IMG/VR virus record: IMGVR_UViG_3300008120_000361
Coordinates: 1-22,054 of that record
Length of the DNA: 22,054 nt
DNA from: a virus
Reading direction: 5' to 3' (one strand)
In this document: in pieces, positions 6,801-22,054 of the stretch
Numbering within the stretch: the stretch's first letter is position 1
Layout of the letters: every line of letters starts with the position of its first letter
The notes under the pieces: model-generated
Told to the model about the DNA's origin: nothing
Databases searched by the model: none
Seen by the model: the letters and a program-made list of their open reading frames with translations, nothing else
Program-made: the position numbers and the translations under genes

Positions 6801-7101
6801 ACCTCTGTTCAAACCGCCCAAACATCTTGTTCAGGAATGGCCGGAAGTCTTTGAAGATCTTTATATGAATACCATGCCGGTTCACTACCTAGAATCAATT
6901 AGGTTGGAATTTGGCAATGGTAGGATATGGGAGATCAATATTGCTGAACAGCTGTCTAACAGTCACAGCGATATAGTTGCCAATAGATTGGTAGAAACAT
7001 TTGCTGAATACAAAGATGAAATCAAAAAGATAGATTTCAAAGTAAATGTAGATAAATTAAAGGCAGATATAGGACAAGAAACAAAACGAATACTAGATTA
7101 A
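6793..7101 (+). CDS. Small phage protein, unknown function, GTG start
   Basis: A 102-residue protein beginning with GTG at 6793 inside the end of the previous gene. An ATG about 25 codons in would cut off the conserved-looking Pro-rich start (PKPLFKPPKHL), so I prefer GTG. The body is a small alpha/beta domain with ESIRLEFGNGRIWEINI followed by helices and a basic end. The function is unknown. It is the last + strand gene: its stop codon lies within the last codons of the convergent - strand SGNH gene (nine-base overlap), so no space remains for a terminator between the two blocks. Confidence 0.65.
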   Translation: MPKPLFKPPKHLVQEWPEVFEDLYMNTMPVHYLESIRLEFGNGRIWEINIAEQLSNSHSDIVANRLVETFAEYKDEIKKIDFKVNVDKLKADIGQETKRILD

Positions 7102-7908
7102 TTTACTAATTTGTTCTGCGAATTCTTTATGTGTTTGTTCTGTAAAGTGATGATTAGGTAATACATATTCTGGGTTAAGATCAGCCATTTTTAAAACAAT
7201 TGGAATAATTTTTTTGTAAAACTGTAGTTTTTCTTTATATTCAAAATTAAATTTCGTTAATCCATTGTTCCAAATACACGAATCAACAAAATGTATACTA
7301 CATCCGTTAGTTTCAAAAAACAATTTTGCAAGAGACAATACAGAGATAGATTTTACTAATCGATCATAATCTTTCATTTTAAAGAAAAAATTGAAAACAT
7401 CATTTTCCATAAAAGATGGAGATATTTTATTTTCAAAGTGCCCAGAAGTCCAGCTAGCATAATTATATTCATTTTTATAATTAACATCATACATGGGATA
7501 TCCCATTCTATTATAAGAAGTGACCATAATTATAATTGATATATTATTAGCTTTATAATCATTTTTCAAATTACAAAAAGTATCTATTGCTCTGTGAACA
7601 ATTTCTTCATTAGATATTCCAGGTGCTGAACAATTTATTACATCGGTACCAGATAGCAGTTGTTCTAAATGAGCAGGCCATGCCTTTTTCTTACATTCCG
7701 ATTCGTAAAAATTTTTCTTAATTTTATCTTGCCATAACGGTAAAGTTTTTTTTTGTAATTTTTCAATTATTTTTTTACGCTCATCCGTCATTTCTTGGTT
7801 ATTAGGATATAACGTACTGGTATAACCTTCTACAAAAAGATCTCCTGCAAGTTCATCTCCTGCTGTATAACTATCGCCTGCACAAATGATTAATTTAGAC
7901 TTTGTCAT
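7093..7908 (-). CDS. SGNH/GDSL-family hydrolase
   Basis: A 271-residue protein with the best SGNH signature in the window: block I CAGDSYTAG with candidate nucleophile Ser13, block II CSAPGISNEEIV with Gly97, block III TSYNR with Asn133, and a C-terminal block V region PNHHFTEQTHKEFAEQI, where His254 is the likely catalytic base. Such enzymes de-acylate or acylate sugars, lipids or peptides. It is the last gene of the ten-gene - strand operon and starts in a one-base overlap with the upstream stop. Company of glycosyltransferases and radical SAM enzymes suggests it edits or transfers an acyl group on the same product. There is no signal peptide. It is only distantly like the two SGNH-like proteins at 1-1340. 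Confidence 0.75.
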   Translation of the reverse strand: MTKSKLIICAGDSYTAGDELAGDLFVEGYTSTLYPNNQEMTDERKKIIEKLQKKTLPLWQDKIKKNFYESECKKKAWPAHLEQLLSGTDVINCSAPGISNEEIVHRAIDTFCNLKNDYKANNISIIIMVTSYNRMGYPMYDVNYKNEYNYASWTSGHFENKISPSFMENDVFNFFFKMKDYDRLVKSISVLSLAKLFFETNGCSIHFVDSCIWNNGLTKFNFEYKEKLQFYKKIIPIVLKMADLNPEYVLPNHHFTEQTHKEFAEQISKLI

Positions 7909-8729
7909 TATTCAATATGTATATTTGTAATTTTAGATTCTGTTTTTAAAATGTTTTTAATTTTTGTTGGAGATAAATCTGTGGTATTTAATGTTGCCGC
8001 GATGTATCTAGAATTTCCGGCCCTGATATCTCTTTTTTTCCAATTTGTTCTTTGTTTAAACCATTCATAATTGCTATCAAACCAGCTCCAAAATTCTTCT
8101 GAAGGTTCAGATCTAGTGTTTTTACCAAACCATATTACAAAATCTGCAGAATATTGCGTATACTCAACAAATACGTCGTCAGATAAAATATCGTTGCTAC
8201 TCCATATAGCATATGGATCTTTTCCTATATGATGATAGGTTAGAAATATATCGCCAAAATTTCTACTTTTGTCGAACAAAAGATGTTCTCTGTCTTCAAA
8301 TGTTTTACCGTAAGAAGTATTCCATGCAACATGAGTGTTAGGAAATTTTTGTACATGTTGATTCGATATTTCCGATTCTAAGCTGTGTAATGACATATGT
8401 AAAGTATGCAAAACATGGGTTATATCTTGTGCATTTGCAAACCAATCATGTAGGCTGTTTAAATCCTGTAAATTTATAGAGTCTATTGTAGGAAAATTAG
8501 GAATTAAATTTATTTTTTCTTTTAATAAATTTATAGAATCTCTGGTAGACTCATAATAATACTGTTTGGGGTTTGACATAAAATGAAAATTCATTACCTT
8601 GGTGGGTAATTCTTTGGTAATCATTTCTTGTACCAGTTCTGCCCATTTTTGTGCAAGAGGTTGACGTTTTATATTCCATTCTAATTGAATAGAATTATCA
8701 AATTCAATTATTAATTTTTGTTTCATCAT
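7908..8729 (-). CDS. Unknown His-rich protein linked to radical SAM genes
   Basis: A 273-residue protein; the start may be the ATG at 8729 or at 8726. I do not recognise a family. The N-terminal third looks like a small beta domain (KLIIEFDNSIQLEWNI). The middle is a helical stretch with regularly spaced histidines and acids (His94, His105, His108, His111, His115, Glu118), and later a TYHHIGKD segment (His166, His167). That arrangement could bind a metal, but spacing alone does not prove it. The C-terminal part is Trp-rich (FWSWFDSNYEWF). It overlaps the upstream radical SAM gene by up to 26 bases and the SGNH gene by one base, so it is probably made together with them and may be a partner protein. 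Confidence 0.65.
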   Translation of the reverse strand: MMKQKLIIEFDNSIQLEWNIKRQPLAQKWAELVQEMITKELPTKVMNFHFMSNPKQYYYESTRDSINLLKEKINLIPNFPTIDSINLQDLNSLHDWFANAQDITHVLHTLHMSLHSLESEISNQHVQKFPNTHVAWNTSYGKTFEDREHLLFDKSRNFGDIFLTYHHIGKDPYAIWSSNDILSDDVFVEYTQYSADFVIWFGKNTRSEPSEEFWSWFDSNYEWFKQRTNWKKRDIRAGNSRYIAATLNTTDLSPTKIKNILKTESKITNIHIE

Positions 8730-10068
8730 ATATAGTTTTACACAAATTATAAAAATCAGTATATTCGGGAAACACTTCTAAGAGATTAGTTCCTAATCTA
8801 CGATCATTTTCTGTAAAAAACGAATAAAAATCTCGGCGGCCTTGACGAATCTTTTCTTTGCTTACCGGATTCTCTCGCATGTAATCCGTAACTCTTTTAA
8901 ACTTTTCGTATTCAATTCCTGTAAAGTAATCTTGATTATCTTTAATAAATTCAAGATTAGAATCCATGCACTGCAAGAAATCATCTGTTAATATGTTAAT
9001 CATCCAGTGAGGCGGTTCTTTCAAATATGGCATGTCTAAACTGATTGCTTGTTTTCCATATTTCTTTCGCCACTCAATGCATTTCTCTAAGAGAGATCGG
9101 AAATTAGTTACGCATAGTACATTAAATGTAATCATGAAATTAACTGATATTCCTAGCTGTTCGATGGCCTGTGTCATATTTCTTTCCCAGTGATCACACT
9201 GCAACCCCGTACGCATATATTCTGCTTGTGGTCCCCACGAATCTATACTGGTAAACAAACTAAAAGATTTAATCTTTTTTTGAGTTATCAAGCTGTTAAC
9301 TCTAGTATACAAACTATCGACTTTTTCAAATGTTACACCTAAGTTACTGTTAATACTTACTTCTAGGTTAGGTGCCGGTTCATTTTCTAATAGTTTAAAA
9401 AACTGCATAGCTCCTGGATTCATTAGAGGTTCTCCGCCAGTAATTCTTAAAGTATGCAAATCATTTTTTAAACTAGGCCACCATTTCCAAAACGCTTCAA
9501 TATAAGGATTTTCTTCCTTAGGTGCATAGTATGTTCCTGTTTTTAGAAACTCAATACCGTATTGATTATAGGTTAAATCATAATTTCCGTGCTTTTTAAT
9601 TTCTTCCATCCACATCGAACTGGCTTGGGGGCCACAATATCCGCAACGATAATTGCAACCATTACCAAAACTAATTTCGAGATATCTAGGATTGATTGGA
9701 GCGTCCCAAGGAAGTTCTGCTATTTTTTCAATTATAGGTTCGCTAAATGTACTTGAACTATGTAACATTCTGTCACTGATATGATCGCCGTCTAGATCTT
9801 CAATATTCCAACAGTAGTAACATTCCTGAGGACGCTCACCCTCTAACATTTTTTTACGTTGTTCTTTTTTCCACTTGGTATTGTGTAATGCCGACACATC
9901 TACTGCGATTTCATCTAGACCAATGTGATGTGGACGAGGATGATAGCAACTGTGGTTATCTCCCGTATGAAGATAAAGCGTTTGGTGTAACCACTTCATT
10001 GTACAAAAGCTAGGACTCACTGCATTTAATCTATCTCTAACATCTTTTACAAATTGTATTCTATTCAT
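8704..10068 (-). CDS. Radical SAM enzyme with N-terminal Twitch-like domain (copy B)
   Basis: A 454-residue enzyme. Residues 1-100 hold four Cys suited to an auxiliary iron-sulfur cluster: Cys22 (PSFC), Cys41 (SCYHP), Cys83 and Cys86 (CYYCW). This matches the N-terminal Twitch-type radical SAM family that I know from marine phages. The catalytic CX3CX2C follows (Cys138, Cys142, Cys145 in CNYRCGYC), then GGEP at 211-214 for SAM binding. These enzymes use the cluster and SAM to make a 5'-deoxyadenosyl radical; auxiliary clusters are common in peptide-modifying members. The start is supported by AAGGGA just upstream. Overlaps the paralogous gene by eight bases. The substrate is unknown; a peptide or glycopeptide is possible. 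The C-terminal signature NDRRLGTNLLEVFPE is shared with copy A. Confidence 0.83.
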   Translation of the reverse strand: MNRIQFVKDVRDRLNAVSPSFCTMKWLHQTLYLHTGDNHSCYHPRPHHIGLDEIAVDVSALHNTKWKKEQRKKMLEGERPQECYYCWNIEDLDGDHISDRMLHSSSTFSEPIIEKIAELPWDAPINPRYLEISFGNGCNYRCGYCGPQASSMWMEEIKKHGNYDLTYNQYGIEFLKTGTYYAPKEENPYIEAFWKWWPSLKNDLHTLRITGGEPLMNPGAMQFFKLLENEPAPNLEVSINSNLGVTFEKVDSLYTRVNSLITQKKIKSFSLFTSIDSWGPQAEYMRTGLQCDHWERNMTQAIEQLGISVNFMITFNVLCVTNFRSLLEKCIEWRKKYGKQAISLDMPYLKEPPHWMINILTDDFLQCMDSNLEFIKDNQDYFTGIEYEKFKRVTDYMRENPVSKEKIRQGRRDFYSFFTENDRRLGTNLLEVFPEYTDFYNLCKTIYDETKINN

Positions 10069-11476
10069 TTTGTCCCTTGCTTTGAATCCACAGATTATTT
10101 AATTCAGGAAAAGTTTTTTGAAAATCAGTTCCTCTTCTTCGATCGTGTTCTAAAAAATAAAGATAAAAGTTTTTAATAGCTATTTTGTCATCAAACGGAG
10201 TTAGCGTAATCCAATCAATTAACCGTTGTACTTTACTAATTTCGTAATCTTTGAAACCTTTAAATCTATTGCTTTCAGTTTCTTTATTCTGTTGCATGAA
10301 CCAAATAGAGTCTTCAAGCACAGTGATCATGTCTTTGGCCATCCTAGGATCCATCCAATTAGGACTTGATAACTGTGGAATATCAAACCATATTAATTGT
10401 CTATCTACATTGAACTCGTTTCTTAGTGCGTGGATATTTTTTACATACTCTAACCAGCCTGAAAAACTTAAAACATTAAATGTTACAATAAATGTCAAAC
10501 TGTGCTTTTTTCCCTTGATTAAATATTCTCTAATGTTTTTATTAAGAGTTTCAAAGTGTAATCCGTCTCTAATATATTCTGCTTGAGGACCCCAGCTGTC
10601 TAAACTACAGAATAACATGAAATGGTCAATAGCAGAAGAAACACCATCTAATTCATTTATAAACTTATTCCATTGATCTCCGGGCGGACAACAATTACTG
10701 GTTATGCTTAGATGCAAATCTTTTTTAGGATTATTCTTAACATAATCAAACATGTGAAACGTGTTCTTGTCCATTAACGGTTCTCCGCCTGTCATACGGA
10801 ATGTTTGTAATGTTGGATAAATTGTAGGCAACCATTTCCAAAACGCCAGTAAGTAAGGATTATCAGGACTGTTATTTGGCATGGATTTATCTTTCATCCA
10901 CGTCAAATCATTGTGAGTTCTGTCTGTTAATTTATACGGACCATTTCTTTCAATATCTTGTTGCCAAGCTGTACTAAGATGAGGACTACAATAAGTACAT
11001 CTAAAATTACAGGCTTGATTAAAATTGACTTCAACATACCTAGGTTTAGGATTTCCTTGATGCCCAAGTGCTATTGCTTCTCTAATTAATCCTGGACGCC
11101 AGCTATCTAAACTGCGGTAGGGCCTATCACTGAGATTATTTCCGCTATCTTCTATTTCCCAACAAAAATTGCATTCTGAAGGCCTAGTACCTTCTAGCAT
11201 TTTTTTGCGCTGTTCTTTTTTATATTTTGTATTGTGTAATGCACCTACGTCAATTTTGATTTCTTCTATAGGAACGTGGTGGCTTTTTGGATGATAACAA
11301 CTATGAGTTTGACCTGTAGGAATGTGTATGCTTACATTATACCATTTGGCTAGACAAAAACTTGGACTAACTTTGTTTAATTCAGACAACATGTGTTCTG
11401 ATTTGTGCATATAGACAGATTCAAATTTTCCATTTATAATTTTTACTTCGTCGCCTTTGATATTATTATCTGCCAT
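10061..11476 (-). CDS. Radical SAM enzyme with N-terminal Twitch-like domain (copy A)
   Basis: A 471-residue paralogue of the next gene. I start it at the ATG at 11476, because AAGGAT lies about nine bases upstream; an in-frame ATG at 11503 would add nine residues inside the upstream gene. The Twitch-like Cys are Cys41, Cys60, Cys102 and Cys105; the radical SAM Cys are Cys156, Cys160 and Cys163 (CNFRCTYC); GGEP is at 230-233. Against copy B the region around HNTKYKKEQRKKMLEG is nearly identical, while the middle and C-terminal substrate regions differ much more, so the two probably do related but distinct reactions, or act as a pair. It overlaps the glycosyltransferase-like gene upstream by 11 bases. 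Confidence 0.82.
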   Translation of the reverse strand: MADNNIKGDEVKIINGKFESVYMHKSEHMLSELNKVSPSFCLAKWYNVSIHIPTGQTHSCYHPKSHHVPIEEIKIDVGALHNTKYKKEQRKKMLEGTRPSECNFCWEIEDSGNNLSDRPYRSLDSWRPGLIREAIALGHQGNPKPRYVEVNFNQACNFRCTYCSPHLSTAWQQDIERNGPYKLTDRTHNDLTWMKDKSMPNNSPDNPYLLAFWKWLPTIYPTLQTFRMTGGEPLMDKNTFHMFDYVKNNPKKDLHLSITSNCCPPGDQWNKFINELDGVSSAIDHFMLFCSLDSWGPQAEYIRDGLHFETLNKNIREYLIKGKKHSLTFIVTFNVLSFSGWLEYVKNIHALRNEFNVDRQLIWFDIPQLSSPNWMDPRMAKDMITVLEDSIWFMQQNKETESNRFKGFKDYEISKVQRLIDWITLTPFDDKIAIKNFYLYFLEHDRRRGTDFQKTFPELNNLWIQSKGQNE

Positions 11477-12824
11477 TTTCAAATTTATCCTTAAGCCAAT
11501 CAAAATCGTTAATTTTAGCCAATGCCTGTAAATTTCCTATATTGTTTTCTCCGTATTTTTTCCCTTCTATTGCACCGTCTATGGCATACTCACCGTATTT
11601 GTTTTCTATTCCTTCTGTGCACCAAATTTGTAATCTATGATCAGTTTCCTTATCATAATATCTATCAATTACATTGCTAGATAATTTTACGCATTCTCTA
11701 AATGCACTTCTCCACGTAGTAAAAGGATCTGTATTAAACTGTGTGATATTACTAACCGTAGGTATAACTTTAAAGTTGTTACTTATAGAAGTTGTCATGT
11801 CTGGTGTTGTTAGATCCATGTTCAGTGTTAGTTTTTTAGGAAATAGCTTTACACCACCGTACCCATAAGTTAATCCGTTAATAGGATTTTGACTTTTCCA
11901 TACATGTACAGTTTCGTTAAAGTGATTTCTTTCTTGCAGATTGTAATAGGGAATTTGCGGCATTGTAAATTCGAAATTTTCTAATACTTGTGCATCTCCA
12001 TCGACTATCCAAAACATTTCTGATGTAGATTCCTTGGCCGCTTGTAAGTGTGCCTGATGTATTCCTTTTACACCGTGTATTCTTTTAGCAGACGAAACTC
12101 TTGTTAACAATGTTTTATAATTTTCATCTGCATTGGATTCATTATAAGAAATAAAAAATATATCAAATATTCGAGGAATTGACGCAACTATATCTATTTC
12201 TTTTTTTTCTACATAGAATCTATTTTCAAATTCTCGTTGTGTGACCTTGACTGTTCTTGGAAAAATACAGATACCGTCAAAGAACTTTCCGTTTTTAAAT
12301 ACGTGAGGAATATGCTGTTCATACTTAGGAACTTTAAAATCAAATTTAAATTTAGAATTTACAACAACTTCTTTCCAGACAACCCAAAACATATCAGTTG
12401 TTGCAGTTTCTATAGCATTTAAATATTCATCATACGTGTCTATATAAAATATATCATATGGTTTAGGATGCGATGCTACAATATCTATTTCTTTTTTTCC
12501 GTTAACAACAAATCTGTTTTCAAATTCTCGTTGGCTAATATTAGCTGTTTTAGAAATTAAACAAACTCCGTCAAAGAATTCACCGTTTTTAAATACGTGA
12601 ATGTAATCGTTATCCCATTCAGGCACTTTATAAGAAAAATCAAAAGATTCATCAACTAATAAATCTTCCCAAATTATCCAAAAAAACTTGGTAAATGCTT
12701 TTGATTTTATTTGATCAAAAGATGTTACATTATCTATTTTTTGTGATCGTGGATATCTTTTTTTAAAAGTTTGCCATTGGTTGTTGCATACTACAGATTT
12801 GCTTACAAGAAAAATATCATACAT
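11466..12824 (-). CDS. Glycosyltransferase-like protein with tandem degenerate repeats
   Basis: A 452-residue protein made of three related units. Units 1 (about 2-120) and 2 (about 122-218) share the order YDIF, FW(I/V)(I/V)W, a KVP turn, HVFKNG, FFDG and REFENRF. Unit 3 (about 219-452) begins FDIFFISYNES and carries VDGDA, with Asp275 and Asp277 as a DxD-type metal site. Units 1 and 2 have WED and WKE at this point, so they are probably inactive copies used for binding. Unit 3 aligns with the whole of the next-door 300-residue protein, including HGVKG, NGLTYGYGGVKL and a conserved WR-x2-FRE segment. This points to a GT-A-type sugar-transferase fold. The enzyme activity is inferred. No signal peptide or membrane segment. 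Confidence 0.68.
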   Translation of the reverse strand: MYDIFLVSKSVVCNNQWQTFKKRYPRSQKIDNVTSFDQIKSKAFTKFFWIIWEDLLVDESFDFSYKVPEWDNDYIHVFKNGEFFDGVCLISKTANISQREFENRFVVNGKKEIDIVASHPKPYDIFYIDTYDEYLNAIETATTDMFWVVWKEVVVNSKFKFDFKVPKYEQHIPHVFKNGKFFDGICIFPRTVKVTQREFENRFYVEKKEIDIVASIPRIFDIFFISYNESNADENYKTLLTRVSSAKRIHGVKGIHQAHLQAAKESTSEMFWIVDGDAQVLENFEFTMPQIPYYNLQERNHFNETVHVWKSQNPINGLTYGYGGVKLFPKKLTLNMDLTTPDMTTSISNNFKVIPTVSNITQFNTDPFTTWRSAFRECVKLSSNVIDRYYDKETDHRLQIWCTEGIENKYGEYAIDGAIEGKKYGENNIGNLQALAKINDFDWLKDKFENGR

Positions 12825-13719
12825 TTTTTAAATAGGTATTAGATAAATTCATTGTTTCTATATAAAGATCCAACGTATATTTGCTTTGATCAGCATCTAG
12901 CCAAGGCCAATGTAATCCTAATTGCGTACTTATTTTGTCACCTAAAGATTTTATTTCTTCAATTAGACCTTGATTGTTATCATCTTCATAAGGCTTTGCA
13001 TAATCATGATATATATCTTTTAATATTTCAAAATCTCTAACATCAATATAATTCCATTGAGTGCAATTTGCCAACCAAGTGCCGAGTCTAGCACCGTATA
13101 CGGCATATATACCATTTTCTTCATGTGCTCCCACAGTTGACCACATGCGCAGTCTATGTATATTATGCCACCACACACGTTCCTTGATTTCCATAGGAGG
13201 AACTTTTATTCCATCTAGTAAAGTCATTTTCACGCCCTCACGAAATCCTGCTCGCCATGCCTGGAACGGTGATCCTGTAATTACAGTTTCACTATAGCAT
13301 TCTTTAAATTGACGATATCCATCTTCCCAACAAAAATCAACCTGGGCTCGTTCACTGTCGCTGGCTTCGTGAGTTTTCATGTTGAGAATGAAATCTTTCC
13401 GCCAAATTTTTAATCCACCGTTACCATAGAGCAAACCATTTAATCTGTTTCTTCCTAGCCAGCTGTATACCTGAATTTTTGGATCAATGGTATCTATCTC
13501 AACGTTAAAAAATTTAGAATCTACAATGTTGTCAGCATCCACAGTAACCACCCAATCTGTTTCCGACAGTTCTGCGGCCTGTTTATGTGCTGCGTCCGAT
13601 CCTTTTACGCCGTGTACACGTTTGGCCCAAGGCACCTTAGAACATAGATCTGCATAGTGAAGATCTGCATTGGGTTCGTCGTAGCTTAAAAAAACTATGT
13701 CAAGTTCAATTGTTTTCAT
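12817..13719 (-). CDS. GT-A-type glycosyltransferase-like protein
   Basis: A 300-residue protein. It begins with a strand (IVFLSYDEPNAD), followed by HGVKGSDAAHKQAAE and VVTVDADN, where Asp61 and Asp63 form the DxD that in GT-A enzymes holds the metal and nucleotide sugar. A Gly-rich loop (YGNGGLKIW) and WRAGFREGVKM near 160 are shared with the downstream 452-residue protein. The family recalls glycosyltransferase-like proteins of marine phages, but I cannot name donor or acceptor. It starts inside the 196-residue gene upstream (14-base overlap) and overlaps the downstream gene by eight bases, so it is in the single operon. No signal peptide is seen; it should act in the host cytoplasm. Confidence 0.72.
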   Translation of the reverse strand: MKTIELDIVFLSYDEPNADLHYADLCSKVPWAKRVHGVKGSDAAHKQAAELSETDWVVTVDADNIVDSKFFNVEIDTIDPKIQVYSWLGRNRLNGLLYGNGGLKIWRKDFILNMKTHEASDSERAQVDFCWEDGYRQFKECYSETVITGSPFQAWRAGFREGVKMTLLDGIKVPPMEIKERVWWHNIHRLRMWSTVGAHEENGIYAVYGARLGTWLANCTQWNYIDVRDFEILKDIYHDYAKPYEDDNNQGLIEEIKSLGDKISTQLGLHWPWLDADQSKYTLDLYIETMNLSNTYLKNV

Positions 13720-14296
13720 TTATAAAAATATATTTTTTAAAAAGTCGTCTAGAATAAACACTAAATTTTTTTGGGGAATCAATTTTTATTGAAAAATTTT
13801 CTTCAATTAATTTACTGAGTTTTACTGTAAACATGTTATGCAAAACATTTGGATCATTGTAATCTGTAATAAAAAAATTCATTTCAGTTTCTCCGTTCCA
13901 AAAAATGCGTTTTCCTTTTCTATACTTTTCATTTAAAATTATAGAAATAGTACTGTTATTATGTGTTATGTAGATATCTGCATCAGTAGTGTCAGACCAT
14001 TTCGAATCTACCACTCTGTGTAGTACATCGTCAATACTTGTCAATGATTTAATTTCTATAATTTCTAAATTGCCGGATTCTAAATCTACGTGGCAATTAA
14101 AAATAGAAGTTGTTCCGTCATTTATTGATTCTGCAGTCTCTTGATCAATTTCTATCTTATTTTTTATTGTATCTGCAGATGATCCTGGATATATTCCAAG
14201 AACTTTTCCGTTGTCGGGATCATATTTTGCCCAGTATTGTATTTTGGTAGCGTTGGCGATTTTGATCCATTCGTCAAAATCCATTAATTCTTCCAT
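13706..14296 (-). CDS. Conserved-looking phage protein, unknown function
   Basis: A 196-residue protein beginning at the ATG at 14296, supported by AGAGGA six or seven bases upstream; an internal ATG at 14284 lacks this. Near the start is a short motif-rich strand pair, QYWAKYDPDNGKVLGIYPG, followed by IEIDQETAESINDG and FNCHVDLESGNLEI. Such a pattern reads like a small beta-rich domain that I associate with marine phage accessory genes near tail fibres. The C-terminal half is Ile/Asn/Lys-rich with little recognisable motif. No catalytic residues can be proposed. It sits between two pairs of glycosyltransferase-like genes; a fibre-associated or chaperone role is possible, but unproven. Confidence 0.6.
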   Translation of the reverse strand: MEELMDFDEWIKIANATKIQYWAKYDPDNGKVLGIYPGSSADTIKNKIEIDQETAESINDGTTSIFNCHVDLESGNLEIIEIKSLTSIDDVLHRVVDSKWSDTTDADIYITHNNSTISIILNEKYRKGKRIFWNGETEMNFFITDYNDPNVLHNMFTVKLSKLIEENFSIKIDSPKKFSVYSRRLFKKYIFINENN

Positions 14297-15123
14297 GCTA
14301 TTTCCTCTAATATACTAATAACCTCGTCAGTTATTAGTTCTTTATTAACATAATGAATAATGTCTGTCTGTTGATAATTTCCTAATTTTATGTGTCCGTC
14401 GACGTTGAGATAGAATCCTATGTGATCAGTCCACTCATTGGCGGGCCATGGCCAATTTTGCACCATTGGTTTCATATGAACTACTTTGGGGAATTCTAAA
14501 TTATAACTAATTTCATTTTCAATGCCTAACAGTTTAGCACTGAGAGCGAATGCTTCGTCGGTGCCAACAACTTTTGGTTTTCTGTTCGACAGGTAAAGAT
14601 TAGAAAACTCTGTAGGATTTTTTATGATCCACCTACCTAAAGAAAAAAACTCTTCAACTAATTTTGAATCTTGTTTAAAAAAAGTGTAAAAACTATATAA
14701 ATTTGGTAACGAATTATCTGTAAACGCTCTTCTATAAAAATCGTTAGTAATTAGTTCTCCTCGATATGTATATGCGTTAGGAGCAATGTATAGCTCAGAA
14801 TTTTCTATAAAATAATCTATCCAATGACTGTAATCTCTAGTGAACAACATATCCGCATCTAGACAAACTGTATATTCAAAGGGAGATAATTTGTTCATCC
14901 ACGATCTTCCGTCCCAAAACGTTTCTTTATTCCATTCAATTACATGATCAAAAACCCATGGGCTTTTTAAATCTTTAATTTTTTTTGTGTCGTCAATTAT
15001 TAATGCAACATGGCCATATCCATCTCTTTGAGTATTTTTAATGCTGAGAGCCAATGCATACGCTAATTTTAAATAGTCTATATTGTTGTTTGAAGATACT
15101 ATTATTAGATAACCAAAGTTCAT
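14284..15123 (-). CDS. GT-A-type (GT8-like) glycosyltransferase
   Basis: A 279-residue protein with a GT-A pattern: an initial strand, ALALSIKNT helix, a second strand VALIID, then the central YTVCLDADMLF with Asp89 and Asp91 as the DxD metal site. A later AFALSAKLLGI helix, FPKVVHMKP and a Trp-rich WPWPANEW follow, placed like the GT8 C-terminal His that helps hold the metal. GT8 enzymes transfer glucose- or galactose-type sugars with retention of configuration; that detail here is inference. It starts in a four-base overlap with the previous gene and its end overlaps the next start by 13 bases. No signal peptide or membrane segment. Confidence 0.75.
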   Translation of the reverse strand: MNFGYLIIVSSNNNIDYLKLAYALALSIKNTQRDGYGHVALIIDDTKKIKDLKSPWVFDHVIEWNKETFWDGRSWMNKLSPFEYTVCLDADMLFTRDYSHWIDYFIENSELYIAPNAYTYRGELITNDFYRRAFTDNSLPNLYSFYTFFKQDSKLVEEFFSLGRWIIKNPTEFSNLYLSNRKPKVVGTDEAFALSAKLLGIENEISYNLEFPKVVHMKPMVQNWPWPANEWTDHIGFYLNVDGHIKLGNYQQTDIIHYVNKELITDEVISILEEIAWKN

Positions 15124-15980
15124 AGTAACTCCAAAAGTTTTTTGCTGTTTCTAATAATGCTTTGTTTATTCATAATATGAATATCTCTATTCTTTGAAGC
15201 TGCTGCTATATATTTTTCTTGATTTAATAAATCGTTAATTAAAAAAGTTAATTTATCATTACTTACGTCGCACAAAATATCTTTATCTATTACAGTATTA
15301 ATTGGCGGCAAACATATGTTATCTGTTTCTCTGTAACCATTTAGAATGTGTTTAGCTACTGAAAATGCAATATCGTTTCTAAACTGCAAGGGATTGAATC
15401 TATAAAGATCTGAGTAGTATTTGTAATTGATTTTTATGTGGTCAACCAAATCAAAAAATAATTTTGTTTCTGAATTTTTTGTAAACATTACTGTAGTGGC
15501 CCAATACATATGGATACCAGTTTCTGAAACATTTTTGTCTAATTCACCTACCCTGTCTCCTTTTATATCGTTCATGGAATGTGAAATTAATAAAGATTCA
15601 TCAACATCCCAATACTGACCTAAATTGTCAGAAAATATTAAAAAATCGCTGTCTAGCAACAGTGTTCGATCATAAGGAGTTAATTCCCAAACAGAATGTC
15701 TATTTGAATTAATAAACGGTACTGTTGACGATTCCATGCCGTCACTTAATTTTCTTGTATTATTTGTCACTGGTCTGTCTACAATAATTATGTTTTCAAA
15801 TATTTCTTTGGCTTTTGGTAAAGAGCCAAACTCATGCATCCAATCAACCGTTGATTTGTCTGTTACTAAAGATATTGGAACTTTTAAATTTTTTTTAGCA
15901 AGCCCGCCGGATATTAAAGCCAACAGACTGTAATCAATTTGTCTGTTATTGTGTGCAAATATTAGACATCCTTTTTTCAT
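15120..15980 (-). CDS. GT-A-type glycosyltransferase-like protein
   Basis: A 286-residue protein of the same general fold as its downstream neighbour but divergent. It opens with GCLIFAHNNRQIDY, a typical first strand and loop, then SLVTD, and the central RTLLLDSDFLIF, where Asp110 and Asp112 form a DxD-like site. Beyond it, HMYWATTVMFTK and the stretch FNPLQFRNDIAFSVA resemble the acceptor-side helices of GT8-like enzymes; the Asp in FRNDIAF is a candidate catalytic residue. The extreme C-terminus is Lys/Asn-rich. Its start overlaps the previous stop (ATGA). The substrate is unknown. With three further transferase-like genes downstream, it may contribute one sugar to a common glycan. Confidence 0.7.
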   Translation of the reverse strand: MKKGCLIFAHNNRQIDYSLLALISGGLAKKNLKVPISLVTDKSTVDWMHEFGSLPKAKEIFENIIIVDRPVTNNTRKLSDGMESSTVPFINSNRHSVWELTPYDRTLLLDSDFLIFSDNLGQYWDVDESLLISHSMNDIKGDRVGELDKNVSETGIHMYWATTVMFTKNSETKLFFDLVDHIKINYKYYSDLYRFNPLQFRNDIAFSVAKHILNGYRETDNICLPPINTVIDKDILCDVSNDKLTFLINDLLNQEKYIAAASKNRDIHIMNKQSIIRNSKKLLELL

Positions 15981-16327
15981 AGATCTAACAATTTTTCAAC
16001 GGAGCGAGATTTTTTTAAAGTTTCATGTTGTTCATAATATTCGTAAACAGCAGTAAAATATCTATCTAATATTTCTTCTTTAAACTCATTCATATTTTTA
16101 ATCAAAATTGGAGTATCGTTTGAGTCTAGCAAAGGAACTTCTTCAATTCTTTCGCTATCAATTAGCAGCTGAACAAAATTGATTAGAGAGCGATCTATCT
16201 TGAATATTCCGCCATTATGACCGTAGGTCATCTTTGCATCAATTTTTTCTTTGAGCTGCTTACGCTGGATTGTGAGTGTTTGCCTGTAGTTTGAAAAATC
16301 TAAGGCTGCTTTTAAACGACCGTCCAT
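15977..16327 (-). CDS. Conserved-looking phage protein, first gene of the operon
   Basis: A 116-residue, mostly helical protein. The N-terminus (MDGRLKAALDFSNYRQTL) is followed by a long basic helix, GHNGGIFKIDRSLI, and two further helices. Proteins of this appearance, starting MDGRLKAALDFSNYR, are to my memory common in marine T4-like phages, without known function. It is the first gene behind the late-type octamer at 16353-16360 and has a strong ribosome site (GGAGGT at 16331-16336). The good signals suggest high late-stage expression. It ends in an ATGA overlap with the first transferase gene. Confidence 0.7.
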   Translation of the reverse strand: MDGRLKAALDFSNYRQTLTIQRKQLKEKIDAKMTYGHNGGIFKIDRSLINFVQLLIDSERIEEVPLLDSNDTPILIKNMNEFKEEILDRYFTAVYEYYEQHETLKKSRSVEKLLDL

Positions 16328-16340
16328 GTTACCTCCTATA

Positions 16341-16370
16341 AAACACGCACATTATTTATGTACTGTGTTT
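16341..16370 (-). promoter_or_regulatory. Compound hairpin enclosing the late-type promoter
   Basis: Read on the - strand, outer arms AAACAC and GTGTTT enclose inner arms ACAT and ATGT with a five-base loop, AAATA. The outer right arm is followed by a T and then ATA. It could act as a weak terminator for the fibre genes or a structured leader, but the stem is imperfect and AT-rich. Confidence 0.3.
16353..16360 (-). promoter_or_regulatory. T4-late-type promoter octamer of the ten-gene operon
   Basis: CATAAATA on the - strand matches NATAAATA. It sits in the gap 16328-16382, 25 bases before the ATG at 16327, with GGAGGT between. It would drive late expression of the operon running to 7093. Confidence 0.6.
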
Positions 16371-16382
16371 CGAGAGGTAAAA

Positions 16383-17285
16383 TTATGAGCCGCTGATTGC
16401 GCTGACTACTGAAGAGCTTGGTGCGATAATAGTAAAGGTACCGCTGGGCTGTAGAAATCCAGCAGGGCGAACTTGATCAACTGTAAGCGTAAGAGTACCG
16501 TCTACTAGGTCGCCTGGGGGCGGATTTGGATTTGGACCGGGATCAAAGTAATTGTCTAACCAACTCACTCGGAAAGTGATAACATTGGCAGTTCCTGTAG
16601 TATTGCTACTGACGTTGCATAACGCTTCTAGTTTCCACTGATTGGCAGCATAGGCCGAACTACCGCTTGCAGTATAAAATGTTTGATAAGAGTTCGTAAG
16701 TGAAAAGAAATTTATGCCTGCTGGGCCGCCGACAAATGTCTGTGTACCTGCGCTGCTGAGCAGATTGCTCCAAGATGTGTTTTGTGCTTCGGCTGATCCG
16801 CCTGTTCTTGAGCTGGCGAATCGAATTTTTCCACCGGCATTAAAAAAGAATCTAGCCTCCTCAGCTGTAGAAAATGTAACAGTAACAGTGGCAGTTAAAG
16901 AATTTACCCAGGAAGATGTGAATGTTTTGTTGTCAATGGCCTCTGTGACAAATTGTCCTGTACCTAGATCAAATCTATTTGTAGTTGCTTGATCAGCAAA
17001 GGTGTCATATTGAAAATTAGGTTGGCTGGCACCATATCTTACTACGTCGCCTACAGCCACTGTGGTCAATACTGCGCCCGATCCTGTTTGATGTAATAAC
17101 GCATTATAGATGTCATATCTCAAGGCATCCCATTGAGTCTTTGTTACTGAATTCCCAGCTGCTACCAAAGAACTAAATACGGTTTGGCCGTAACCAAAAT
17201 TACCAGCTCCTGTGGACATTACATTGAATATTTTTGTTCTGATTGTGTTATAATCAGTTGCAGTAATAAAATCACCGATTGCCAT
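16383..17285 (-). CDS. Probable virion/tail-fibre-associated structural protein
   Basis: A 300-residue, Ser/Thr/Gly/Asn-rich protein of mainly beta composition, typical of phage adhesins. The first 70 residues form a short repeat-like module (GDFITATDYNTIRTKIFNV, then KTQWDALRYDIYNALLHQTG), where FGYGQ and HQTG motifs recall short fibre or hinge proteins of marine myoviruses. The rest alternates beta strands with small residues. A Pro-rich linker (GPNPNPPPGD) at about 250 separates a final beta domain. AAGGA lies five bases before the ATG. It is separated by only nine bases from the fibre gene upstream, so both are likely on one transcript. The exact virion position is unknown. Confidence 0.65.
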   Translation of the reverse strand: MAIGDFITATDYNTIRTKIFNVMSTGAGNFGYGQTVFSSLVAAGNSVTKTQWDALRYDIYNALLHQTGSGAVLTTVAVGDVVRYGASQPNFQYDTFADQATTNRFDLGTGQFVTEAIDNKTFTSSWVNSLTATVTVTFSTAEEARFFFNAGGKIRFASSRTGGSAEAQNTSWSNLLSSAGTQTFVGGPAGINFFSLTNSYQTFYTASGSSAYAANQWKLEALCNVSSNTTGTANVITFRVSWLDNYFDPGPNPNPPPGDLVDGTLTLTVDQVRPAGFLQPSGTFTIIAPSSSVVSAISGS

Positions 17286-17294
17286 AAATTTTCC

Positions 17295-19052
17295 TTATAA
17301 TACCAATGCTTCTATAACACCTGAACCAGACTGGTGGTCTTGAAGAGCTATAGCAAAATAATCTGTATCAGATTTGTCTGCAGCCGATGCTGCGCCAAAC
17401 ATATTTTGAGCAGGGACCAACTTGTCCCCTTTCTTAACTGTACCTTGTACTTTTACAGGCACACGACCTTTTAGTGCAACCAATGTGCCACCATCTAATT
17501 GCGAATTCATTATGAAACCTGGCTTACCTGACACAATACCGATAGCTCTATTACCATATGTGGCTGCTGTAATTTCTTTTACACCACCAATACATACCAC
17601 TGTGCCCACTTCATATTCTTTATCTGCTAGATATTTTTCAGCAAGATCTGCATATTGCGCTGCGGTTGCTGTACCGTCAAAGGTATTGGCCAATAGATTT
17701 CCTGAACCGTCTCTAGCTGCAATTGTGTTAGCTGTTTTTGTGGTTTTAGCAGATCTGTAATTAGGGTCTGTGTCTACTGCTGCGTCATTTATTCTAGTTC
17801 TATCTGATTTATCTACGACTCCGATAAATCTAGTAGCAGTGATGTTACCACTGCTATCTCGCAGAGCCACAGAAGTTGCTACTGCACCAAGTTCTCCAAC
17901 TAGACTGTTCAAAGACAAAGCGTTAGTGGCTGTACCTGTAACTGAACCTATCACATTGCCTGTGAGTGTTCCCGAGAAATTGCCTGAAAATATTTTTGTA
18001 ACCGCGGTATAGGCCACAGAATTGTCGTCAGCAAGTATATTACCTTTGTGTACGCCTGTGGTATTTCCGGTTACATTACCAGTTAATGCCCCTGTGAATG
18101 TGGTTGAATGCACGTTAGCCCACTTAGAAACAGCAGAACCAAGAGTAAAGAAATTGTCTGTGCCTGGAATCATGCCATTTGCAGTTACAATACCAACATT
18201 ACGAAGATCACTGTCCGATACTCGTATTCTCAAGGTTATAGTATTGCCTAATCTGTTTTCAATAATGGGTTCATCACCGTTTTCAACACGGATTCTTAAA
18301 TCATTTTGATCACCTACTGTAAGGCCAGCATCGGCGAAAGCAATTGCATTAGTAAAGGATACCTCACCTATTCTAATATATTCGCTGGCAGCATAACCGC
18401 CTAATCTCAATGCATTGCTTGCTGATCCCCAAAAATAGTGATCTGTAGTTGTTACTCCGGTAGTGCCGTTGGTGTTGACTAGATTGACACCTTTCTTGAT
18501 CACTGAGAATCCTGTTATAGGATTTAAAACGCTATTTAGGGTGAATGCATCTTTGCTGACGATTGATATTACATCACCGCCAGATTGAAATTTTACTATG
18601 GTATGATTGTTGTTAAGGGTGTCTTTGACTACCTGCGCCTGTACTGCCGATGCGCCTAGATCAGGCAGGGTTTCAGGGCCAATTAATACAAATTCAGTGC
18701 CAGTATAGGCATACAGTTGTTCGGCTCCGGTATCAAACCAAAAATCACCGGCCTGCAATCCGCTGGGAGGGGTAGGACCTATCTCTGCGCCGCTGGCTGT
18801 TCTAAACTTTGTGCCGTCGTAGAACCGAAGTTTTTTTAGGCCGCTGTCATACCAAATTTGACCAGTTATTCTTTTTGGAGGGGCCGATGTATTGGCAAAG
18901 TTTTCCAGCAAATGTAAGAAATTCTCGTTCTGTACTTCGCCGTAGCCAGCGTAATTTTTACCTACAAAACGCAAATCAGTGGTGGTATCAATGGTACCGT
19001 CGTCGACAGAGACTAAGAACGTTCCATTAAATTTGTCTACTTGATATGCCAT
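17295..19052 (-). CDS. Tail-fibre-like protein (copy 2)
   Basis: A 585-residue adhesin-like protein. The N-terminus is shared with the upstream paralogue, including GYGEVQNENFLHLLENFAN and the ITGQIWYDSG-type Trp/Tyr/Gly module repeated at about 60-130 (FWFDTGAEQLYAYTG). The middle is rich in Thr, Asn and Gly, with repeated LTGNV(I/T)G(N/S)-type strands expected for a trimeric beta fibre. The C-terminal 120 residues begin TATAAQYADLAEKY and contain GRVPVKVQGTVKKGDKL; this module resembles a self-assembly or auto-processing chaperone domain of phage fibres, though I see no confident catalytic pair. A late-type octamer at 19075-19082 lies 23 bases upstream. It would bind the host surface or the baseplate. 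Confidence 0.78.
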   Translation of the reverse strand: MAYQVDKFNGTFLVSVDDGTIDTTTDLRFVGKNYAGYGEVQNENFLHLLENFANTSAPPKRITGQIWYDSGLKKLRFYDGTKFRTASGAEIGPTPPSGLQAGDFWFDTGAEQLYAYTGTEFVLIGPETLPDLGASAVQAQVVKDTLNNNHTIVKFQSGGDVISIVSKDAFTLNSVLNPITGFSVIKKGVNLVNTNGTTGVTTTDHYFWGSASNALRLGGYAASEYIRIGEVSFTNAIAFADAGLTVGDQNDLRIRVENGDEPIIENRLGNTITLRIRVSDSDLRNVGIVTANGMIPGTDNFFTLGSAVSKWANVHSTTFTGALTGNVTGNTTGVHKGNILADDNSVAYTAVTKIFSGNFSGTLTGNVIGSVTGTATNALSLNSLVGELGAVATSVALRDSSGNITATRFIGVVDKSDRTRINDAAVDTDPNYRSAKTTKTANTIAARDGSGNLLANTFDGTATAAQYADLAEKYLADKEYEVGTVVCIGGVKEITAATYGNRAIGIVSGKPGFIMNSQLDGGTLVALKGRVPVKVQGTVKKGDKLVPAQNMFGAASAADKSDTDYFAIALQDHQSGSGVIEALVL

Positions 19053-19074
19053 TGATCAACTCCGTTGTAACTAT

Positions 19075-19082
19075 TATTTATC
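19075..19082 (-). promoter_or_regulatory. T4-late-type promoter octamer ahead of fibre copy 2
   Basis: GATAAATA on the - strand matches NATAAATA. It is in the gap 19053-19096, 22 bases before the ATG at 19052, with a CGGAG ribosome site between. Good placement supports a real promoter. Confidence 0.6.
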
Positions 19083-19096
19083 GTAAATACACCCAT

Positions 19097-20914
19097 TTAA
19101 ACTCTGCCTACTGCTACTTCTATAACACCATTTACACCATCAAAATCTGCTAGTGCTTTGCCTATAATTGTACCTATTTGAGGACTGATTGCTTTTCTAG
19201 CATATCCGTCACCTGCACTCATCAGCATATCGCCTTTGGATATTTTTCCTCTAACTTTGCAAGGTGCTCTACCCTGTAATGCAAGGGCAACTACATATGT
19301 ACCTACACATTCGCTGTTCATTAGATATGCAGGCGCTGTTGATACAATACCAGCCAATCTATTTGATCCGTCTTCTGCTAGAGTTACTTCAAATTCACCG
19401 CCGAATTCAAGTACTGTACCAGGCTCATATTCTTGATCTGCTACGTATTTTTCAGCAAGATCTGCGTATTGTGCAGCAGTGGCTGTGCCTACAAAAAAGT
19501 TGGCATGCACGTTGTTCCATTTTGCAGTGGATATTCCTAGATCAGTAGTAGCAGTATTCACTGGGATCATAGCTGGAGCATTGAGCCCTCCTAACGCCAA
19601 CGCCGTGGCTGCATTTACCATAGAGATTGCAGCCGTACTTGACGGTTGTGTTGGATCAAGAATTGTGAAACGTATTCCAGAATTACGTGAATGTAATGTT
19701 GGTATTGTAGATGCGTCTAAGTATATTCTCAAAGGCGCCACACTGGTGCTAGGTCCTCCGAGTGTGATACCGGTTGCGCCAGCTACGTCTAGAGAAGATA
19801 GTGTTCCCACATTAGTAAGATGAGAATCTACTATGTTGACTGCCAATTGTGTGCCCGTCAATGTGTTACCGTCTGCAGGTACTGTGATATTTGCACTGCC
19901 ATCAAACAGTACCGTGTTGATTGTTCTTGCTGTTTGTAATTTTGTGGCTGTAAATGCGTTGCCAGATAGCGTGGCTCCTATGAATTCGTTGGCTGATACT
20001 ATGTTGAAAGTACTGGTTCCGCTAGCAGTGGTTACATTTCCAGAGACATTACCGAGCAAATTAGCAGTGATTGTGCCTGCGGAAAAATCTCCGGCACTGT
20101 CTCTAGCCACAATTTTGCCTATAACATTATTGGGACTGGCATCTACACTCCAAGTAGTGGCTGTTGAGCCATTAAAGTTTGCACCAGTTAGATAGGTGCC
20201 TCTTGTTAATGTATTAGTTGTGTTTGATGTAATTGCGATGTCTGTTTGACCATCGAAATACACACCATTTATAGTTCTACCAGGATTCAATTTACTAGCA
20301 GATTCTGCATTTCCCACCAGTGACCCAATGACTGGCCTGGCGGTTGAAATATTGGTTCCTGCCTGTAAGATTGAAAATCCAGGTATTGCGTTGGCATCAT
20401 CTATAGTAAACGCATCATCAACACACACTGCCAACACTGTGCCATCTACTACTACCTTGAGGGCCGCATGTTCAGTGCCATTACTATCCCTAATTTTTTC
20501 AGCTAGAACTTTAGTCATACCAAAGCCTTCAATGGCTTCGGGTCCTATTAATTTCCATAATCCAGAATCATATACAAACAGTTGATCTGTGATATCTTTG
20601 TACCAAATGCCGCCGTCGAATCCTTCTGGCTCAGTGTCACTGATAACAGCAGATCCTACAGGAGTCCAGGCTGTACCATTATAAACATTCAGTGCGCCAA
20701 TATCGGTGTTATACCATGTTTGTCCTGTGATTGGTCTAGACGGTGGATTGTCATTGGCAAAATTTTCAAGCAGAAACAAAAAATTCTCATTTTGTGTTTC
20801 ACCATAGCCAGTATAGTTTCTGCCAAGCAATCCTAGACTGGTTGAGGTATCTAGTGTGCCATCTTCTAGCACTACTAATTGCTGACCGCTAAATCTGTTT
20901 ATGATATATGCCAT
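19097..20914 (-). CDS. Tail-fibre-like protein (copy 1)
   Basis: A 605-residue paralogue of the gene at 17295-19052. N-terminal residues (YTGYGETQNENFLFLLEN), the ITGQTWYNTD module and the C-terminal ATAAQYADLAEKY-to-GRAPCKVRGKISKGDML module are shared, while the central beta repeats differ. The central part has NGVYFDGQTDI and FDGSANITV-type repeats known from phage fibre shafts. Shared ends with a variable middle are what one expects of duplicated adhesins that diverge in receptor binding. CGGAG precedes the ATG. A weak late-type octamer lies upstream at 20931-20938. No membrane segment. The position relative to the baseplate is unknown. Confidence 0.78.
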   Translation of the reverse strand: MAYIINRFSGQQLVVLEDGTLDTSTSLGLLGRNYTGYGETQNENFLFLLENFANDNPPSRPITGQTWYNTDIGALNVYNGTAWTPVGSAVISDTEPEGFDGGIWYKDITDQLFVYDSGLWKLIGPEAIEGFGMTKVLAEKIRDSNGTEHAALKVVVDGTVLAVCVDDAFTIDDANAIPGFSILQAGTNISTARPVIGSLVGNAESASKLNPGRTINGVYFDGQTDIAITSNTTNTLTRGTYLTGANFNGSTATTWSVDASPNNVIGKIVARDSAGDFSAGTITANLLGNVSGNVTTASGTSTFNIVSANEFIGATLSGNAFTATKLQTARTINTVLFDGSANITVPADGNTLTGTQLAVNIVDSHLTNVGTLSSLDVAGATGITLGGPSTSVAPLRIYLDASTIPTLHSRNSGIRFTILDPTQPSSTAAISMVNAATALALGGLNAPAMIPVNTATTDLGISTAKWNNVHANFFVGTATAAQYADLAEKYVADQEYEPGTVLEFGGEFEVTLAEDGSNRLAGIVSTAPAYLMNSECVGTYVVALALQGRAPCKVRGKISKGDMLMSAGDGYARKAISPQIGTIIGKALADFDGVNGVIEVAVGRV

Positions 20915-20930
20915 TTATCGCTCCGTTACA

Positions 20931-20938
20931 TATTTAAC
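20931..20938 (-). promoter_or_regulatory. Weak late-type promoter octamer ahead of fibre copy 1
   Basis: GTTAAATA on the - strand differs from NATAAATA at one base. It lies in the 26-base gap before the ATG at 20914. Placement is good, but the mismatch keeps confidence low. Confidence 0.3.
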
Positions 20939-20940
20939 CA

Positions 20941-22054
20941 TTAAGATACAAATACCCATGCGCCAGTAATAATCTGAAATGTTTTGACTATCCTTGAAAC
21001 AATCAGCCCAGGCGCTGCCACTGTAGCAGTGGTAAAACTAACGTTGTTTATACCAAACGCTGTGCCTGTTGGAGTCACAAATTCTGTTGAAGAGGTTGAC
21101 AGCAATGGGTTGATATCAAGATTAGTGGTGCTGTTGATCAACAGTGAACACAACACTCTAGCAATGGTACCGTTGTTGTACTCTGCTACCGGTGCAATCT
21201 GCTCTAATAATGTAGCAATACCTGCATTAGAAATACCGTCAGATATATCCAGGCTGAGTACAATACTTCTAGCTTTGATGGTATTATCAACATAATTTTT
21301 TGTGGCAGCATCTTGTGCAGAAGTTGGGTCTGCTACTGATTTGATTTTTTTGCTGCCTAAATTAAGACCGCCTGTGCCGTTGATAAGCAACGATAAATCG
21401 GTGTTTGATGTTGTTACCTGTATAGCGGCATCATTGAGATATAGGCTATCTACAGATAGTTGTGTTTGCACACCGAAGCTGGTTACACCCGGAATACTAG
21501 TTATACCTGGACCAAGTGATGTACCCGACAACACAGTTACTCCGTCAATTTTAAATTCTTTACCTGTGGCTAGATTTATGTGTTCTGAACTGGTCCACGC
21601 AGCACTGGCTAATGCAGGAATAGCATCATTGTAGCCTTCAGCAGTTGCAGTCCCGCTAGTGGCCTGTGCTGCTTGACCTACATCGTGCCATAAAAATACA
21701 TGGCTGGCGGCTCCTTGTAGTACTACACCTCCGCCAGCTGCATTTGTATCTGTGGGTACAATACCAGTTTGTTTGGCCAACACTATGTTCTTATCTTCAA
21801 TGGTTACTGTGCTGGTATTCACTGTGACCACGTTTCCGTTCACAGTAAGGTCTCCCTGCACTGTGAGACTTCCACCTATTTGTACTTCACTGGTAGGAAA
21901 TCCATCATATAAATCAATTCGACGAGCATCAGCTTCTATATTGATTGCTGCTTCTGCGATAACATCTCGTCTAACGTTGAAAGTCATCTGTTTGTTTGAA
22001 GCGATGTTAGCAATTATTAAATTACCATCTTGAACTTGAAACTGTCCTTGGTTT
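20941..22054 (-). CDS. Large tail-fibre-like protein, 5' end cut by window edge
   Basis: The reading frame stays open past the ATG at 21987 to the right edge, and the extra codons give plausible fibre sequence (QFQVQDGNLIIANIASNK), so the real start lies outside the window. The visible 371 residues are a Thr/Asn/Gly/Ala-rich beta-repeat protein. GGSLTVQGDLTVNGNVV and STVTIEDKNIVLAK form a repeat-strand module common in marine myovirus fibres. AATKNYVDNTI is a known-type fibre motif with a coiled or trimer-forming role. The end is a compact beta domain terminating GAWVFVS. It is probably a receptor-side or shaft portion of a long tail fibre. It is followed after 26 bases by a fibre paralogue pair. 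Confidence 0.72.
   Translation of the reverse strand, partial: NQGQFQVQDGNLIIANIASNKQMTFNVRRDVIAEAAINIEADARRIDLYDGFPTSEVQIGGSLTVQGDLTVNGNVVTVNTSTVTIEDKNIVLAKQTGIVPTDTNAAGGGVVLQGAASHVFLWHDVGQAAQATSGTATAEGYNDAIPALASAAWTSSEHINLATGKEFKIDGVTVLSGTSLGPGITSIPGVTSFGVQTQLSVDSLYLNDAAIQVTTSNTDLSLLINGTGGLNLGSKKIKSVADPTSAQDAATKNYVDNTIKARSIVLSLDISDGISNAGIATLLEQIAPVAEYNNGTIARVLCSLLINSTTNLDINPLLSTSSTEFVTPTGTAFGINNVSFTTATVAAPGLIVSRIVKTFQIITGAWVFVS

Follow-up and report, generated by a model that had tools for sequence, protein, structure and literature searches.

The stretch of viral DNA examined here, IMG/VR record IMGVR_UViG_3300008120_000361, raises the question of what is built by a block of ten genes lying beside its tail-fibre genes, and on which molecule the product is placed. 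This 22-kb viral contig (22,054 nucleotides, the whole stretch that was analysed) is referred to as the window, and the ten genes are named A to J. From the start of A at 16327 to the end of J at 7093, they form ten consecutive open reading frames (ORFs) on the minus strand, each overlapping the next, behind one late-type promoter motif and beside the tail-fibre genes, as a preliminary description of the window had outlined. Here, we report that A to F make up a core of constant order which is accompanied in environmental relatives by a changing set of radical SAM genes. With roughly even confidence, the region may be read as a hypervariable island for the assembly or modification of a glycan, in which a fixed transferase core is combined with a swappable tailoring cassette and the virion, probably its fibre, would serve as the acceptor.

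A fixed core with at least one radical SAM gene

Relatives of E are encoded in at least 453 and relatives of H in at least 186 stretches of IMG/VR. In order to avoid circularity, the loci fetched with E were used to ask about all other genes. The order f300-A-B-C-D-E, where f300 is the tail-fibre-like gene next to A, was kept on one strand in all 50 such loci with 5 kb of upstream sequence, and a Twitch radical SAM gene was present in all 51 with 4.5 kb of downstream sequence. Of the loci fetched with H, 69 extend 6 kb upstream, and E is present in 66 of these; in ten loci of greater divergence that were also fetched with H and contain E, at least one core gene went undetected at the tblastn limit. 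These counts support a unit made up of the A-F core together with one or more Twitch radical SAM genes, and not the exact ten-gene set described earlier. I and J were found in 9 and 14 of 161 loci, respectively, and they swap between loci; they are variable cassette genes and not core. The co-occurrence proposed as a check on the island thus holds for A to F with a radical SAM gene and fails for I and J.

Glycosyltransferase-like proteins

The four proteins described as GT-A-like retain that assignment: E by a structure model, F by homology to E, and B and C as suggested by glycogenin profiles, with a DxD motif in all four. They fall into two homologous pairs, B/C (GT8/glycogenin-like) and E/F.

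E (12817..13719) carries its DxD at D61-D63, both of these aspartates being invariant across 26 sequences. Its structure model (pLDDT 92) was compared with solved structures using Foldseek, and the best match in the PDB was 2p6w, the capsid glycosyltransferase of PBCV-1 (E-value 5e-6, prob 1.00), with further solved-structure matches almost throughout GT-A enzymes. Matches in BFVD, a library of viral structures, include a glycosyltransferase of mycobacteriophage Che8 (E-value 2.4e-4), and the fold also resembles the peptide S-glycosyltransferases SunS and ThuS. The model supports a GT-A fold for E, with the DxD predicted to lie at the end of the nucleotide-binding half.

B (15120..15980) and C (14284..15123) are homologous to each other (hhalign 99.6%). 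The DxD of B is at D110-D112, both of which are invariant in 30 sequences, and that of C at D89-D91, where D91 is invariant and D89 at least 90% conserved. B matched the Pfam GT8 family (PF01501) at 21.4 bits (E-value 2e-4), under the gathering cut-off of 24.3, and C gave no match to PF01501; since the gathering score was not reached, the two are described here as GT8-like and are not filed as GT8 members. Weak profile matches to glycogenin, with E-values spanning 0.012-0.06 (0.036 for B and 0.012 for C), suggest a GT-A structure for both. Profiles of D, E and F searched against PDB sequences returned nothing useful.

F (11466..12824) consists of two degenerate GT-A-like modules (approximately residues 1-216) and one catalytic GT-A-like domain with DGDA at D275-D277; D275 and D277 are invariant in 16 sequences. 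This C-terminal domain is homologous to E (hhalign 100%, E-value 1e-41), which supports placing F in the GT-A superfamily. Among 30 F proteins, one to eight tandem modules of about 105 amino acids precede exactly one catalytic domain, and the lengths rise stepwise (344-366, 441-472, 561, 652-668, 755-769, 874-875 and 1084 residues). A hidden Markov model of the module also matched the catalytic domain in all 30 (E-values about 1e-6 to 1e-13), hence the modules are considered degenerate halves of a GT-A domain, with mostly WDD or WPE where the DxD would stand. In the F of locus L031 (5340-8594), modules 4-7 are alike at 75-89%, the mark of a recent expansion by duplication. As a guess, the modules may bind the acceptor or set a length.

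Radical SAM proteins G and H

G (10061..11503) and H (8704..10068) are N-terminal-Twitch radical SAM proteins; G bears the CxxxCxxC motif and four N-terminal cysteines. They scored 302.6 and 308.9 bits, respectively, against NF033640 (N_Twi_rSAM), far over the curated cut-off of 170, and the two Twitch-like radical SAM enzymes seen at the outset are by these scores and motifs confirmed as genuine members of the family. The radical SAM cysteines C138, C142 and C145 and the N-terminal auxiliary-site cysteines C22, C41, C83 and C86 are invariant in the alignment, and CxxxCxxC is kept in 108 of 109 radical SAM members of the arrays. The weak NCBIfam similarities of G and H include maturases of ribosomally synthesised and post-translationally modified peptides (RiPPs). 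A phmmer search of H against PDB sequences gave nothing useful.

A swappable tailoring cassette

The cassette was defined as the region between E/F and the convergent gene v102, and 31 non-redundant islands with 199 cassette ORFs were compared. F was present in every one of these islands. Radical SAM genes account for 109 of the 199 ORFs, with one to five per island, and in five islands (L095, L096, L111, L127 and L131) the radical SAM block is on the opposite strand. Rarer genes, each found in a single island or a few, encode an NDP (nucleoside diphosphate)-sugar dehydrogenase, NAD-dependent sugar epimerases/dehydratases, a sugar C-methyltransferase (Methyltransf_13/14), Methyltransf_24, a B12-binding radical SAM protein and a 2OG (2-oxoglutarate)-Fe(II) oxygenase, all of a kind typical of glycan tailoring.

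Between the window and the related loci L127 and L128, the fibre proteins are 80-97% identical (mostly above 90%) and the flank gene v214 is 96% identical at the protein level, whereas A to F share 43-79% and the radical SAM block of L127/L128 differs from that of the window and is inverted. Given the low identity of A to F and the different block against conserved flanks, the island changes faster than its surroundings. In L127/L128, with fibre and right flanks matching those of the window at up to 97% identity, the inversion amounts to a replacement of the whole cassette.

The window's own variable genes are I (7908..8729), which occurs in four of the 31 islands and had no family match in Pfam and NCBIfam-type family scans, and J (7093..7908), the cluster of which (c2) occurs in 14 of them. 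J has a GDSYTAG block I and a conserved histidine near the C-terminus within an HHF motif, and the same pattern of GDS and histidine is seen in relatives from clusters c2, c4 and c6. None of the curated SGNH/GDSL family models matched J, with a weak similarity to DUF6071 alone (E-value 0.036), and J is supported as SGNH-like by motif only. The SGNH hydrolase in the preliminary description is retained on this basis, although it and the histidine-rich protein listed with it, as the genes I and J, are swappable and not fixed members. SGNH proteins acylate or deacylate glycans.

The maximum 19-residue hydropathy among the ten proteins of the window is 1.52, and a value above 1.8 was found in one of the 199 cassette ORFs. 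Neither the island of the window nor the 31 cassettes contained a recognisable membrane-bound transferase, flippase or polymerase, and among ORFs of at least 60 amino acids the island showed no recognisable gene for a small precursor peptide.

Position beside the fibre genes and the late-promoter motif

The island lies between four genes of tail-fibre type (16383-21987) and a convergent plus-strand block that includes QueE and a 5'-3' exonuclease. Its GC content is 0.32, compared to 0.39 and 0.42 in the flanks. The overlaps are 4 bases for A/B and B/C, 13 for C/D, 14 for D/E, 8 for E/F and G/H, 26 for H/I and 1 for I/J; that of F/G is 38 bases with the TTG start given by the ORF tool and about 11 with an in-frame ATG nine codons downstream.

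The consensus of T4 late promoters is TATAAATA. A late-type motif, CATAAATA, is located at 16353..16360 on the minus strand, 26 nt upstream of gene A. Its core, ATAAATA, is depleted in the window, with 4 copies against 10.9 expected, and each of the four (at 737, 4921, 16353 and 19075) precedes the start codon of a listed ORF by approximately 20-30 nt, in one case that of the fibre gene f585. The rarity of the core and the placement of every copy upstream of a start mark it as a placed late-promoter motif and not background. The distribution looks as if the core were avoided elsewhere in the window. This pattern is a signature of T4-type late promoters, which suggests that the island is probably transcribed late, together with the tail-fibre genes.

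Relatives in bacterial contigs

The closest radical SAM proteins outside viral collections are in contigs of metagenome-assembled genomes (MAGs) or isolates. In a Pelagibacterales MAG (L180), the radical SAM gene is part of a run that also holds another radical SAM protein, GT2- and GT7-type transferases, a methyltransferase, two sugar epimerases and a DUF6071-like protein. In the same contig (4337-7206), two GT7-type transferases next to Twitch radical SAM and epimerase genes both carry a fused lectin domain of the Laminin_G/ConA-like type. The relative of H in a Bacteriovoracales MAG is near GT2-like and other glycan genes, as read from the ORFs, and that in a Bdellovibrionales MAG is near a PMT-type mannosyltransferase. 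A Bdellovibrionia MAG (L178:118-15797, 16 kb) carries about nine radical SAM ORFs, mostly of the Twitch type, with an SGNH-like protein and UDP-glucose pyrophosphorylase. Some of these MAG contigs could be misbinned phage DNA.

Relation to known systems

The host recognition cluster (HRC) of pelagimyophages is a fibre-adjacent hypervariable island with GT8 proteins and radical SAM cassettes (Zaragoza-Solas et al. 2020, PMC7029224), so the earlier statement that no described phage pathway with this exact set was known is too strong. The HRC resembles the present island in being located by the tail fibres of a T4-like phage, in its wealth of glycosyltransferases (GT8 being the most represented), in a UDP-glucose dehydrogenase and in the gain of radical SAM cassettes (PMC7029224); the island of the window is likewise tail-fibre-adjacent and hypervariable, with GT8-like proteins and radical SAM cassettes. 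It differs in the fixed A-F core of constant order with the radical SAM array after it, and in a linked gp23 that is nearest to jumbo phages of the PA5oct/GAP32/Phosso type. In the pelagimyophage genome, the HRC lies between VrlC and gp14, and freshwater pelagimyophages lack lipopolysaccharide and radical SAM genes (PMC7029224). Features that differ from the HRC, or were not described in the literature found, are the modular F, the size of the radical SAM arrays, the strictness of the A-F core and the phage group itself.

Virion glycosylation offers a second comparison. According to Freeman et al. 2023, as cited in PMC12619734, mycobacteriophages such as Che8 glycosylate their virions, phage glycosyltransferases acting on capsid and tail proteins, and the Che8 enzyme is a fold neighbour of E. 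Che8 belongs to a different phage family, and the target in the present island is one that we infer. We know of no radical SAM tailoring array in virion glycosylation of the Che8 type. The PBCV-1 enzyme is likewise a virus-encoded GT-A protein and the best solved-structure match of E; it comes from an algal virus, acts on a capsid protein and shares 16% identity with E at a low TM-score.

G and H belong to NF033640 by score and motifs, and compared with the family in general, which has no assigned substrate, the islands carry arrays of one to five paralogues. BtrN, NeoN and HygY belong to the same broad radical SAM class; their auxiliary-cluster domain is C-terminal and that of G and H is N-terminal. 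These Twitch/SPASM enzymes dehydrogenate or epimerise aminocyclitol or sugar substrates, according to work cited in PMC10991966.

Proposed pathway and alternatives

In the proposed pathway, the soluble GT-A enzymes B and C, then E and F, would use nucleotide-activated donors to add sugars to an acceptor in the cytosol; GT-A enzymes with a DxD use nucleotide sugars. The Twitch radical SAM proteins, i.e. G, H and the changing paralogues, would alter sugar residues by radical chemistry, e.g. epimerisation or dehydrogenation, in the way Twitch/SPASM enzymes act on aminoglycosides, and the SGNH proteins would add or remove acyl groups. Most likely the acceptor would be a virion protein, probably a fibre, and exchange of the cassette between phages would change the glycan displayed. 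We consider a glycan pathway as such very likely, because of what is known of GT-A, Twitch/SPASM and SGNH proteins and because sugar genes co-occur with them. The MAG loci nearest to H, with radical SAM genes among GT2/GT7, epimerase, PMT and UDP-glucose pyrophosphorylase genes, also support the reading.

Several points weigh against it. Enzyme activities and the glycan itself are inferred from sequence and a model; B falls under the Pfam GT8 cut-off; the TM-scores of E to solved glycosyltransferases are low (about 0.30-0.37 by query length), so that they support the fold superfamily and not a specific family or donor; and NF033640 carries no known substrate. The window and L127/L128 have similar fibres but different islands, so that the two do not vary together in a simple way. 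Moreover, the similar published island has been read as modifying the host O-chain (PMC7029224).

The same enzymes may indeed act late in infection on the surface glycan (O-chain) of the infected cell, blocking co-infection or the sticking of progeny to debris. The substrates of the glycosyltransferases would then be lipid-linked intermediates on the inner side of the membrane, and the serotype would be changed by the cassette. Besides being the published reading for the pelagimyophage clusters (PMC7029224), this would suit the NDP-sugar dehydrogenase and epimerases of the cassettes, which are typical of surface polysaccharides, and the MAG loci with H relatives, which look like surface-glycan gene neighbourhoods. 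However, late expression is late for exclusion, and none of the membrane-bound components searched for was found in the window island or the 31 cassettes; known serotype conversion by phage Gtr systems uses membrane proteins. We hold a host-glycan acceptor to be a substantial but lesser prospect and give the virion about even chances, favouring it because of the adjacent fibres, the late motif, the presence of soluble proteins only with no flippase or polymerase, and the likeness of E to capsid and tail glycosyltransferases. The late-expressed glycan pathway beside fibre genes that was first suggested thus stands, with the fibre and a surface glycan as its two candidate targets.

Many SPASM/Twitch enzymes mature peptides, and the radical SAM proteins could instead modify a protein, either fibre side chains or a small peptide, the glycosyltransferases then decorating the modified residues. 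The RiPP maturases among the weak similarities of G and H and the resemblance of E to SunS/ThuS would agree with this; the co-occurring sugar enzymes, the failure to recognise a precursor peptide gene among the island's ORFs of at least 60 amino acids and the one to five divergent radical SAM proteins per island, which fit the tailoring of a variable glycan better, make it improbable. Glycosylation of phage DNA (hypermodified bases) is known in T4-like phages, and the window also encodes QueE of the deazaguanine pathway. We reject this very improbable reading in view of the fibre adjacency, the late motif, the lack of recognised nucleotide-modifying genes in the island and the closest solved neighbours of E, which are protein or polysaccharide glycosyltransferases. 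An accidental neighbourhood of unrelated accessory genes might be argued from the swapping of I and J and the AT-richness of the island, but an order kept in 50/50 loci and a co-occurrence of 51/51, with overlapping genes behind one late motif, refute it for A to F and the Twitch radical SAM genes and leave it barely credible overall.

Extending the virion reading, we tentatively, and as less likely than not, consider a form of antigenic variation of the virion, in which the constant transferase core and the swappable radical SAM array would yield a lineage-specific fibre glycan and the one to eight modules of F would act as repeats that bind the acceptor or set a length.

Phage group and neighbouring genes

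gp23 was found on 7 of 16 contigs linked through the island. The one gp23 that was compared shares 65-70% identity with those of four jumbo T4-like phages (PA5oct, GAP32, Vibrio 2.275 and Phosso); by this linkage, the window itself lacking gp23, the phage appears to be a large T4-like one. The group is widespread and uncultured. psbA was absent from the 16 linked contigs, hence there is no sign of a cyanophage, and no tRNAs were found in a linked contig of 187 kb, which therefore offers no host clue. Among 50,697 phage records, tblastn matched none of A, E, F, G and H; a QueE control did match, so the search is considered sound. Nothing supports the marine origin assumed earlier, and the relatives look freshwater: the IMG sample numbers of the contigs appear to be mostly those of lakes, and L180 is apparently from an offshore lake sample.

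Among the remaining core genes, A (15977..16327) encodes a conserved protein of 116 amino acids, is the first gene of the island, occurs in 128 of 161 loci and always lies between f300 and B where this could be tested. D (13706..14296; 196 amino acids, conserved) is the fastest-diverging core gene; a C-terminal beta-sandwich is predicted, and its structure model (pLDDT 82.5, pTM 0.57) had no significant structural match in Foldseek.

Upstream, all on the minus strand, are f300 (16383..17285), which is called tail-fibre-like from its position among fibre genes and has no family match of its own, the tail fibre proteins f585 (17295..19052, with its own late motif at 19082-19075) and f605 (19097..20914), and the tail/virion structural protein f348 (20941..21987). 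f300 is duplicated directly upstream of the island in many relatives (L014, L020, L104 and others). Near the left end of the contig (103-1340, plus strand), u2 is a second SGNH-like protein with GDSFAT at its start, next to u1, of no assigned function; relatives of u2 also occur inside radical SAM cassettes of other islands (cluster c4). A QueE-like 7-carboxy-7-deazaguanine synthase (1930-2784, plus strand) is 49% identical to a protein of Synechococcus phage BUCT-ZZ01 and points to a possible deazaguanine DNA modification in these phages.

Implications

Few phages are known to have glycosylated virions, and, if the virion reading is true, the island would to our knowledge hold the first pathway of Twitch radical SAM enzymes that acts on a viral glycoprotein. 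Twitch families such as NF033640 have no known substrate, and the island would tie these enzymes to virion glycosylation. It recurs in hundreds of environmental contigs, with the five of its proteins that were searched finding no match in records of cultured phages. The island is therefore a concrete place to test radical SAM substrates, and to test whether large phages diversify a surface glycan in the way that bacteria diversify O-antigens.

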